Shown here one piece after another: positions 4,836 through 47,678 of a stretch of DNA of 64,000 bases (position 1 is the stretch's first letter; each line of letters opens with the position of its first letter). Source of the stretch: Halobaculum marinum (lineage in GTDB: Archaea; Halobacteriota; Halobacteria; Halobacteriales; Haloferacaceae); the NCBI RefSeq assembly GCF_029338555.1, contig NZ_CP119989.1, positions 620,001 through 684,000 on the forward strand, written 5' to 3'. The notes under the pieces were generated by a model. The model worked only from the letters and a program-made list of their open reading frames with translations, made no database searches and was not told where the DNA came from. A program made the position numbers and the translations under genes.

Positions 4836-5066
4836 ATGTCCCTCCACGACGCAGTCGGCAGGATCGACGACGCCCACGTCGTCCGCCTCCTGACACTCTG
4901 GTTCGCGGTCGCGACGTTCCTCCGAGTCGCGTCCGACGGCGGCTCGACGGCCGAAGCGGTGGTCGGGTTCGTCGCACTCCTGCTGTTCTGGGGGATCCCG
5001 ATCCACCTCCTCGTGACGCTACTGCTGGCGGTCGACGTGGCGATCGGCGGGTCCGCCACCGAGTGA
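4836..5066 (+). CDS. Small two-helix membrane protein, unknown function
   Basis: 76 residues with two hydrophobic stretches, at about residues 18-36 (VVRLLTLWFAVATFLRVA) and 43-70 (AVVGFVALLLFWGIPIHLL). I do not recognise a family. The reading frame has haloarchaeal codon bias and a promoter-like box at proper spacing, so it is likely real. It lies between the MBL hydrolase and the surface-protein operon, on the same strand as both. Confidence 0.6.
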   Translation: MSLHDAVGRIDDAHVVRLLTLWFAVATFLRVASDGGSTAEAVVGFVALLLFWGIPIHLLVTLLLAVDVAIGGSATE

Positions 5067-5122
5067 CGACCTCCGGGGCTCGACGGTCGGGCGGGTGCCG
5101 ACGCGTTTCAGCGTGGCGGGAA

Positions 5123-5130
5123 GCTATTTG
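5123..5130 (+). promoter_or_regulatory. TATA-like box for the CARDB-like protein/ABC operon
   Basis: AAGCTATTTGC lies 27-34 nt before the TTG at 5157. It supports that codon as the first codon of a leaderless mRNA. Confidence 0.45.
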
Positions 5131-5156
5131 CGCGTCCAACCCCTAACTGCCCTAAC

Positions 5157-6761
5157 TTGAACGCCCGTTCAACCCGGGCAGCGGCCCTCGTCGTCGGCCT
5201 CCTGCTCGTCACGTCGGTCCTCGTCCCGTTCGTCGGCGTCGCCGGCGCGGTGCCCGACGCCCGCGTCTCCGTCACCGACGCGACCGTCACACCGGCCACC
5301 CCGACGGCCGGCGCACCGATCACCGTCGCGGCGACCGTCCGCCTCTCGGGCGGGAGCGCGTCCGCCGCCGACCTCGACCGCGTCCGCGTCGTCGACGCCG
5401 ACGGCGAGGTGCTCGGCGAGGCGACCGGCCTCGGCGCGCTCTCGCCCGGCGAGACGCTCACGGTACCGGTCACCCTCACCGTCGACGACCCCGGCGCGTA
5501 CGACCTCTCGGTCGTCGCGACCGTCTCCGACAGCGACGACGAGACCGCCAGGGCGCGCTTCCCCCTCTCGCTTGTCGTCGAACGGGGCGCCCCGCAGGTC
5601 GAAGTCCGTGCGGAGAACGCCGTCGCCGGCGCCGACTCCCGCGTCGCGGTGACGCTCTCGAACCCGACGACCGCCGCGCTGCGCGACCTCACCGTCTCGG
5701 TCGTCGACCCCGCCGACGGCGAGCGCGTCGACGGCACCGTCGCCACGCTCGCCGCTGGCGCGAGTCAACAGGTGAACCTCTCGGTCCGCCCGACCGAGGC
5801 GGGCGAGCAGTCGTTCCAGGTCCGCGTCGACTACACCACCGCCGCGGGCACGCGCGCCTCCGTCACCCACGAGGGACTCGTCACGGTCGACGAACTGGCC
5901 GCCGACGTCGGCGTCCGCGTCTCGCGGTCGACCGGCGACGGCGACGGCGCGGCCGCGGGCGGCGGCGGTGCGGGCGGCCTCGCGGGCATCATCGGCGCCG
6001 CGGGCGGCGGCGGAGGCGGCGCGCTTCAGTCGTCCGGCGGCGACGAGGCGTCGGGCGACGGGTCCCGTGTCGACGTGACCGTGACCAACTTCGGCAACGC
6101 CGCCATCGAGCGCGTCGTGCTCGTCCCGCGCGGCGCGAACGGCACCGTCGTCGCCGCGGTCGGCCGCGTCGCCGTCGCCGACGCGCTGGCTCCGGGCGAG
6201 GCGGCGACCGTGACCGTCGACCTCGCGAACGTGGAGTCGGCGGGCGACATCGCGTTCGTCGCGACGTACGACCTCGCGGGCGAGCGCCGGGAGGCGGCCG
6301 CCGCCTACGACTTCCGCCCGAAGCGCGGCGCCGTCGAGTTGACCGGCCTCAACGTCTCCGTCGGCGAGGACGGGCGCGTCACCATCGGCGGCAACCTCGG
6401 CAACGTCGGCGGGTCCGAGGTGACCGGCGTCGTCGTCGGCGTCGCCGACGGCGAGTTCGCCGCGGCGGCGTACCCGCAGCGCGACTACTTCGTCGGCTCC
6501 GTCGCCGCCAGTGAGTTCGCTCCCTTCCGCGTCACCGCCCGTGTCGACACGGAAAACACCTCGACCGTCCCGGTGCAGGTCACGTACACGACCGGCGACG
6601 ACCGCGTGACGACGGTGGTCGACGTACCGCTCCCGGCAGACGAGCGACAGGGACGCCCGGTCGGCGTCTTCGGCGGCTTCGGGGCGGTCGGGGGTGTCCT
6701 CCTCGCGATCGGACTGGCGATTCCCGCCGCCGTCGGACTGCTCGTCCGTCGGTACCGATGA
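5157..6761 (+). CDS. Secreted CARDB-like (COG1361-type) surface protein, membrane anchored
   Basis: 534 residues beginning at a TTG. No ATG or GTG precedes the signal peptide, whose hydrophobic core is LVVGLLLVTSVLVPFVGVAGA (about residues 11-31). The mature part consists of repeated Ig-like beta-sandwich segments (PTAGAPITVAATV, NPTTAALRDLTVSV, NFGNAAIERVVLV, NLGNVGGSEVTGV), with a Gly/Ala-rich linker at about 265-295. The C-terminus is one helix (GGVLLAIGLAIPAAVGLLV) followed by RRYR. It overlaps the ABC ATPase gene by 4 nt (ATGA), so it probably forms the extracytoplasmic part of that transporter system, as in other archaeal COG1361/MacB-type loci. Confidence 0.8.
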   Translation: MNARSTRAAALVVGLLLVTSVLVPFVGVAGAVPDARVSVTDATVTPATPTAGAPITVAATVRLSGGSASAADLDRVRVVDADGEVLGEATGLGALSPGETLTVPVTLTVDDPGAYDLSVVATVSDSDDETARARFPLSLVVERGAPQVEVRAENAVAGADSRVAVTLSNPTTAALRDLTVSVVDPADGERVDGTVATLAAGASQQVNLSVRPTEAGEQSFQVRVDYTTAAGTRASVTHEGLVTVDELAADVGVRVSRSTGDGDGAAAGGGGAGGLAGIIGAAGGGGGGALQSSGGDEASGDGSRVDVTVTNFGNAAIERVVLVPRGANGTVVAAVGRVAVADALAPGEAATVTVDLANVESAGDIAFVATYDLAGERREAAAAYDFRPKRGAVELTGLNVSVGEDGRVTIGGNLGNVGGSEVTGVVVGVADGEFAAAAYPQRDYFVGSVAASEFAPFRVTARVDTENTSTVPVQVTYTTGDDRVTTVVDVPLPADERQGRPVGVFGGFGAVGGVLLAIGLAIPAAVGLLVRRYR

Positions 6762-42012: not shown

Positions 42013-42088
42013 AAGCGGGCTGGGAGGGATTCGAACCACACCGTCGGCTCGCGTTCGCTCGCCGCCGTCTACTTCGAATCCCTCCAGC
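42013..42088 (-). other. Hairpin carrying a copy of the tRNA-Lys 3' end
   Basis: Read on the tRNA strand: GCTGGAGGGATTCGAA (42088-42073), GTAGA, an inner stem-loop (42067-42042), GTGTGG, then TTCGAATCCCTCCCAGCCCG and CTT. The last 25 nt (42037-42013) are identical to the 3' end of tRNA-Lys plus its first trailer bases (42146-42122). The outer arms pair over 16 bp with one bulged G; the inner stem is 7 bp with one mismatch. An equivalent element lies by tRNA-Gly. Confidence 0.65.
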
Positions 42089-42124
42089 GAACGCTTTCAC
42101 TGCTCACTGACGTTCGCAGGAAAG

Positions 42125-42198
42125 CGGGCTGGGAGGGATTCGAACCCCCGACCGTCCGGTTAAAAGCCGGACGCTCTCCCTAACTGAGCTACCAGCCC
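42125..42198 (-). tRNA. tRNA-Lys (anticodon TTT)
   Basis: 74 nt, no intron. Acceptor GGGCTGG pairs with CCAGCCC and the discriminator is G. D-arm TAGCTCAGTTAGGGAGAGC. Anticodon stem TCCGG-CTTTTAA-CCGGA gives anticodon TTT. T-arm GGGGGTTCGAATCCCTC. No CCA is encoded. Reads leftward. Confidence 0.95.
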
Positions 42199-47495: not shown

Positions 47496-47573
47496 TGCGC
47501 CGTCCGGGAATTGAACCACGCCGAGACGTGCTCGCTCCGCTGCGCGCGTCTCGTCTACTTCAATTCCCGACGG
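47496..47573 (-). other. Hairpin carrying a copy of the tRNA-Gly 3' end
   Basis: On the tRNA strand: CCGTCGGGAATTGAA (47573-47559), GTAGA, inner stem CGAGACG..CGTCTCG (47553-47522), GCGTGG, TTCAATTCCCGGACGGCGCA. The last 22 nt (47517-47496) are identical to the tRNA-Gly 3' end including the discriminator (47629-47608). Same layout, junctions and spacing as the element beside tRNA-Lys. Confidence 0.65.
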
Positions 47574-47607
47574 AGATTCCACTCCGCACGTTCGTTTGTC
47601 GCAAGAA

Positions 47608-47678
47608 TGCGCCGTCCGGGAATTGAACCCGGGCTATTGGCTTGGGAAGCCAATGTCCTACCACTGGACCAACGGCGC
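47608..47678 (-). tRNA. tRNA-Gly (anticodon CCC)
   Basis: 71 nt, no intron. Acceptor GCGCCGT pairs with ACGGCGC and the discriminator is A. D-arm TGGTCCAGTGGTAGGACA. Anticodon stem-loop TTGGC-TTCCCAA-GCCAA gives CCC. T-arm CCCGGGTTCAATTCCCGG. Reads leftward. Confidence 0.95.

Follow-up and report, generated by a model that had tools for sequence, protein, structure and literature searches.

Why should the 3' end of a tRNA gene stand a second time a short way downstream, with half of its T-arm inverted in between? The question is raised by a tRNA-Gly(CCC) gene of the haloarchaeon Halobaculum marinum, in a stretch of 64,000 nucleotides (nt) (contig NZ_CP119989.1, positions 620,001 to 684,000) that we call the window and in whose coordinates positions are given. 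Along the tRNA-sense strand, this tRNA is followed by a unit made of a spacer (H1), an inverted copy of the 3' half of the T-arm, a hairpin that forms the core, and 20 nt copied from the tRNA end. A second unit of the same layout lies behind tRNA-Lys(TTT). We show below that such tRNA-copying cassettes are a large non-coding family found class-wide in Halobacteria, of which the Gly unit is one member. The two units of the window are composed as follows.

47608..47678, minus strand: tRNA-Gly(CCC), the anchor (ARAGORN and Rfam), with T54-N73 at 47627-47608
47571..47607, minus strand: H1 of the Gly unit, a spacer hairpin region directly 3' of the discriminator base (from the sequence)
47559..47570, minus strand: inverted arm of the Gly unit, TCGGGAATTGAA, reverse complement of tRNA T54-C64, 11/12 exact
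47516..47558, minus strand: core of the Gly unit, with GTAGA loop, 7-bp (base pair) inner stem CGAGACG/CGTCTCG, apical GCGGAGC (GNA triloop), and GCGTGG with an invariant terminal G
47496..47515, minus strand: direct copy of the tRNA-Gly tail T54-N73, 20/20 identical
42125..42198, minus strand: tRNA-Lys(TTT), anchor of the second unit (ARAGORN and Rfam)
42085..42124, minus strand: H1 of the Lys unit (from the sequence)
42073..42084, minus strand: inverted arm of the Lys unit, GAGGGATTCGAA, 12/12 to tRNA T54-C65
42036..42072, minus strand: core of the Lys unit, GTAGA ... GTGTGG
42016..42035, minus strand: direct copy of the tRNA-Lys tail T54-N73, 20/20 identical

An earlier note on this DNA had claimed that one design, with arms specific to each tRNA, stands at both genes, and we could reproduce the layout, the junctions, and the direct and inverted repeats. 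Positions 47496-47517 repeat the 3' end of tRNA-Gly at a spacing of 112 nt, and a repeat search lengthens the match to 25 nt at 96% identity. The same search finds the inverted T-arm half of the Gly unit exact over 11 nt (47559-47569), beyond which it continues only over a one-base bulge (CCGTC/GACGG, 47570-47574). For the Lys unit it gives a spacing of 109 nt, a 25-nt direct repeat at 100%, and an exact inverted arm of 13 nt. The junctions GTAGA and GYGTGG are common to both units, the Gly element folded as RNA scores z = -3.86 relative to dinucleotide-shuffled sequences, and Halobaculum gomorrense also has both units, that of tRNA-Gly and that of tRNA-Lys, about 5 kilobases (kb) apart.

How far does this design extend? 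The earlier note had also asked whether the GTAGA...GYGTGG core stands at other tRNA genes, and it recurs both in the source genome and across the class, but as only one of several core types. A census of the source genome, made through tRNA searches, places units behind seven of its 44 tRNAs, i.e., Gly(CCC), Lys(TTT), Lys(CTT), Ser(GGA), Arg(TCT), Ser(CGA), and Leu(TAG), several of them with cores other than GTAGA/GYGTGG. The pattern GAAGTAGACN{12,42}GYGTGGTTC, written for GTAGAC/GYGTGG cores, matches 50 of 391 Halobacteria genomes, which represent 32 of 86 genera; its reversed control matches none of the 391. Nearly all fetched matches lie directly 3' of a tRNA and have matching arms, a few further ones that resembled chance matches in coding sequence having been left out of the fetched set. 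A core-independent pattern (GGATTTGAA, 24-54 nt, GTTCAAATCC) matches in 26 of 33 Halobacteria vs none of 164 other genomes of the phylum. We inspected 41 loci (40 from this search and one plasmid): the unit is directly 3' of a tRNA in 37, and a tRNA is present in two more (39/41). Coincidence is ruled out as an explanation by the reversed-pattern control, the matching arms at tRNAs, and the contrast across the phylum. The general features of the family are the pairing of arm and tail at T54 and the exact T54-N73 repeat, rather than the GTAGA/GYGTGG core. The collection holds 95 units from fetched loci and 63 more that include some duplicates, or about 140 distinct units, at more than 20 isoacceptors; their length is mostly 97-160 bp, with bodies of about 80-140 bp, and tandem arrays reach five units (locus L324). 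An early contig scan had named H. gomorrense, Natrinema hispanicum, and Halovivax asiaticus as carriers with a pattern so loose that most of its matches were due to chance. Apart from all these, an orphan core GTAGAC...GGCGTGG at about L187:8160 has neither tRNA arms nor an adjacent tRNA and lies just 3' of a coding gene.

What exactly is copied can be read from the 151 tail copies aligned to their tRNAs. Identity is 1.00 at positions 53, 54, and 55, remains at 0.93 or above through N73, and drops to about 0.5 (0.51) at 74; G53 precedes the direct copy in 151 of 151 cases; and position 52 is not copied, the unit usually having G where the tRNA has A. The duplicated segment therefore begins at T54, or at the invariant G53, and ends with discriminator base N73. 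No CCA follows any of these copies, and this led us to reject an origin from mature tRNA by reverse transcription. The inverted arm measures about 10-12 nt and corresponds to the reverse complement of the segment between T54 and about C63-65. Of 44 non-Watson-Crick pairs of the T-stem, the arm agrees with the 3' strand at 32 and with the 5' strand at nine, which disfavours the arm being a copy of the 5' strand. Arms are imperfect, with typically zero to three of 12 positions mismatched, and tails stay near identical. Mismatches between arm and tail at positions 54-63 include 24 G-U and 19 A-C, i.e., no excess of G-U. In the outer stem, 24 bases are unpaired in the tail vs six in the arm, their positions varying; the tail commonly has a one-base bulge.

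The core consists of two short loops flanking a 7-bp inner stem whose pairs swap between GC, CG, and AT, and in which Watson-Crick pairs exceed every shuffle at six of seven positions, as expected of compensatory change. An apical NN-GNA-NN hairpin is found on the tRNA-sense strand of 96 of 136 cores and on the antisense strand of 12, the background frequency of the motif being 15% of 43-mers. In DNA, loops of the GNA type are known for their unusual stability. GAA is followed by G in the most frequent core type, and by T or C in other types. Of 87 units, 73 (folded as RNA) or 75 (as DNA) have the more favourable fold on the sense strand. On that strand, arm, core, and tail are predicted to form a single hairpin, in which an outer stem of arm and tail T54-C63 is followed by an internal loop, the covarying inner stem, and usually a GNA triloop. 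H1 stands at the same position in all units. Full minihelix mimicry, in which the arm would pair through the acceptor stem, was only weakly above swapped controls, and we do not retain it.

Are the arms customised to the tRNA beside them? Arms match their own tRNA at 949 positions, where the maximum of 2000 permutations is 827. With the core as the only guide to the arm, which removes any bias of the search towards a match, there are 536 matches, and 5000 permutations reach at most 480. The tracking extends to alleles: the T-loops TTCGAAT, TTCAAAT, TTCGACT, and TTCGAAC of tRNA-Val(UAC) are accompanied by arms with GAT, AAT, GCT (one GCG), and GAC at the variable positions. Whether arms follow T-arm differences between species was a check proposed from the outset, and it bears out tRNA-specific arms: within eight isoacceptors, 79 of 86 variable cells match (shuffled mean 50, maximum 65 in 5000), a count to which some loci were contributed by a pattern that fixes arm and tail, and in the stricter subset free of that search bias 17 of 24 match, a value reached by 29 of 5000 shuffles.

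The units also differ between sister genomes, and their modules recombine. The tRNA-Gly locus is empty in the sister genomes G385 (93% identical), G293, and G184, where a single tail runs straight into the flank and H1 is absent; BLAST geometry indicates a fourth empty site in G109, and in other sister genomes the locus holds units that differ in inner stem and H1. Between species, 9% of unit pairs from the same tRNA are alike in both H1 and core. H1 is at least 75% identical in 90 unit pairs, of which 43 have dissimilar cores. At locus L343, two tRNA-Asp copies have a common H1 and arm and different cores, one of which is inverted; among 52 units checked for core orientation, a second inverted core was found at L312 and an ambiguous third case at L307. 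The breakpoints of core exchange and inversion fall at the arm. These comparisons indicate that H1 and core assort independently and that cores can be replaced or inverted between arms. Some arrays have grown in blocks. Behind the tRNA-Ser(UGA) of L324, units 2 and 4, and 3 and 5, of the five are near-identical, which indicates block duplication between tails, and at L341, L343, and L315 tRNA-Asp(GTC) is itself duplicated inside unit arrays, with units as part of the duplicated block.

What mechanism could produce such units? The earlier note had left a functional RNA and a mobile element that copies its target side by side. The data favour a DNA-level cassette, because of the exact repeat, the empty sites, the tandem arrays, the exchange and inversion of cores at arms, the lack of CCA, and the lack of a G-U excess, both movement and transcription being inferential. 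We regard it as plausible, if somewhat short of probable, that the unit is a DNA cassette recombined at G53|T54, and that the hairpin of arm, core, and tail is a folded recombination site by analogy with integron attC sites. A small non-coding cassette would join the chromosome inside the T-loop of the tRNA, between G53 and T54. The unit opens with a tail identical to T54-N73, by which the tRNA stays intact and the original tail ends up at the far end. The hairpin, folded from single-stranded DNA, would be the site of a putative structure-recognising recombinase, with strand exchange at G|TT as in attC sites. Presumably the tRNA stays functional only if the tail is identical to it, and the site forms only if arm and tail pair. 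Arm and tail would thereby both be customised to the host tRNA; a recombination site in the sense-strand hairpin would in this way explain both the match of arm and tail and the identity of tail and tRNA. Recombination between direct tails could then gain or lose units, and recombination at the inverted arm could swap or flip cores. Both the enzyme and the way in which the inverted arm arises or is corrected are putative parts of this model. More tentatively, every tRNA gene may be an attI-like anchor, served by a recombinase that reads single-stranded hairpins with the T-arm stem of the host, in a site rewritten for each tRNA.

A number of observations weigh against recombination of a cassette at G53|T54. 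We found no recombinase linked to the units, the surroundings of the units in the window having been read only as open reading frames and no genome-wide search for integron integrases made; no obvious gene lies inside the units, and no version with cargo, i.e., a far tail copy with an arm, is found in the 10-kb loci. Units could be gained and lost by homologous recombination between the 20-nt repeats, with no need of a special enzyme. Cores often lack a C after GAA, where attC has AAC. Pairs of units from different tRNAs of one genome never agreed in H1 and core together; units have therefore not moved whole from one tRNA to another in recent times, and recent transposition of whole units inside a genome was rejected for want of a single case among such pairs. 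The pairwise similarities of H1 and core fit old, vertically kept units. Departures from the tRNA number 12 in the copy only, 80 in the arm only, and none in both, so that an arm does not go along with a copy that has changed: the arm therefore follows the tRNA, not the individual copy. A donor signature in the mismatched arms was unconvincing, mismatches being mostly at positions 64-65. Viral contigs and phage records gave no true unit match, the matches in viral contigs being due to chance or to anticodon arms of bacterial tRNA-Ser. The sole plasmid match is a complete unit behind tRNA-Val(CAC) (L303:1360-1570, Natronorubrum bangense plasmid NZ_CP031306.1), and viral or plasmid carriers of the core were thus discarded. 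This plasmid also shows units travelling with tRNA genes on megaplasmids. Five high-GC viral contigs (L350, L353, L358, L360, L363) have a near-perfect palindrome of 58-61 nt with an inverted and a direct tRNA-like 3' half, CACGGTTCAAATCCATG, and no tRNA gene; this may be an attachment site that includes half of a tRNA in inverted form.

The main rival, which we hold to be rather unlikely, is that the units are tRNA trailers, co-transcribed and folding into two hairpins, the second of which would mimic a T-arm whose loop is enlarged and might direct 3' processing, serve as ligand of a tRNA-binding protein, or give rise to stable small RNAs; arms would be tRNA-specific because the stem uses the duplicated tail. 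There is room for such an RNA because the units share the strand of the tRNA and fold better in sense, core orientation is constant in 52 units apart from two clear inversions and a third, ambiguous one, and the loops are conserved, to which the compensatory inner stem and vertical inheritance at the same tRNA may be added. Yet an RNA serving the tRNA sits uneasily with units at only seven of the 44 tRNAs of the source genome and with sister species that have none at the same tRNA, with several unrelated core types at one tRNA, with the existence of inverted cores, and with an arm that has no G-U excess; nor does any Rfam covariance model match up to E=1 outside the tRNA itself.

Two further explanations dispense with both a functional RNA and a dedicated structure-recognising enzyme. 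The units could be a neutral by-product of DNA synthesis, in which hairpin-prone sequence 3' of tRNA genes repeatedly triggers template switching that perfects the arm against the tail and recombination between tails spreads tandem units. Arms that are imperfect (0-3/12) while tails are near identical, block duplications such as those of L324, and the commonness of hairpin-forming GNA motifs in these genomes (15% of background 43-mers) all agree with this, but it leaves unexplained why the boundaries T54 and N73 are alike at more than 20 isoacceptors, why GTAGA/GYGTGG loops are conserved class-wide around a compensatory inner stem, and why the units occur in Halobacteria only; we judge it improbable. 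Still less credible is an origin from ordinary integrative elements that target tRNAs, of which the units would be scars or minimal satellites, moved by tyrosine integrases and deleted in their interior to about 110 bp. Direct repeats at tRNA 3' ends are indeed the usual footprint of integrases, and elements with integrases occupy the same tRNA ends in L169 and L196, where tyrosine-recombinase genes (L169:3838-4869 and L196:about 5000-6240) lie between a tRNA tail fragment and the unit array. Ordinary integrases therefore also use these tRNA ends. These elements, however, have only some 13 nt of the tail in common (from about position 61) and lack a terminal arm-core hairpin, and their integrases belong to insertions separate from the units; usual att sites lack an inverted tRNA half, the narrow range of unit lengths (mostly 97-160 bp) is unlike random deletions, and the 10-kb loci hold no relative with cargo.

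Do the units then belong to a known system? By the generally known features of integron cassettes and attC sites, they resemble these in standing in tandem behind one anchor, in a hairpin with an outer stem, an unpaired loop, and an inner stem, in an invariant G-TT at the junction, and in a structure kept while the sequence drifts. The G-TT likeness (G53 in 151/151, T54 and T55 at 1.00) is weak evidence, G53 being universal in tRNAs, and the units differ in that they often lack the AAC of the R'' box, have no genes, are anchored at the tRNA T-loop, and have arm and tail customised for each tRNA. Archaeal elements integrated by tyrosine recombinases at tRNA 3' ends have been reviewed (PMC8371274). 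Like these, the units are anchored at tRNAs, duplicate the 3' end as a direct repeat that restores the tRNA, and have empty sites in relatives; unlike these, they are about 110 bp long, non-coding (no integrase), tandem, and endowed with an inverted T-arm half, and their identity spans T54-N73 where the L169 and L196 elements use a shorter end segment. PATEs (IS200/IS605 derivatives) are likewise short, non-coding, palindrome-bearing, and haloarchaeal, but by their description have palindromes near their ends, no target duplication, and dispersed insertion, whereas the units are strictly behind tRNAs (39/41 core-independent loci contain a tRNA), have a 20-nt repeat in every case, and use tRNA sequence as stem. 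In Methanopyrus kandleri, a palindrome lies about 10 bp behind many tRNA genes (PMC5217627). It shares with the units the position of a palindromic motif after many tRNA genes of one archaeon, but is short and generic, with nothing of their tRNA-specific arms, copied tail, and tandem arrays. Casposons are known to target tRNA 3' ends, and insertion by Cas1 of the casposon or CRISPR type resembles the units in repeated insertion beside an anchor with duplication of a short repeat; the units differ by lacking visible terminal inverted repeats, by a duplication of 20 nt rather than about 14 nt, and by the inverted copy of the target inside the insert. The units thus fail defining features of integron cassettes, classical tRNA-integrated elements, and PATEs. 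Rfam has no match over them beyond the tRNA itself, and we found no description of them in the open-access literature, subscription journals being largely uncovered, so that prior mention is possible.

The units may therefore be a new kind of tRNA-anchored genetic element. If so, Halobacteria would hold a widespread, undescribed cassette system tied to tRNAs, in which a self-matching hairpin is rewritten for each tRNA, and DNA recombination that recognises structure would then have a second example besides integrons; otherwise the units would make up a tRNA-specific RNA family. Several questions become testable: which enzyme would act at the tRNA T-loop, how the inverted copy of the target arises, and why insertions are so frequent at tRNA 3' ends. 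The family also calls for caution in reading haloarchaeal genomes, because extra tRNA ends behind tRNAs are not automatically the scars of proviruses.
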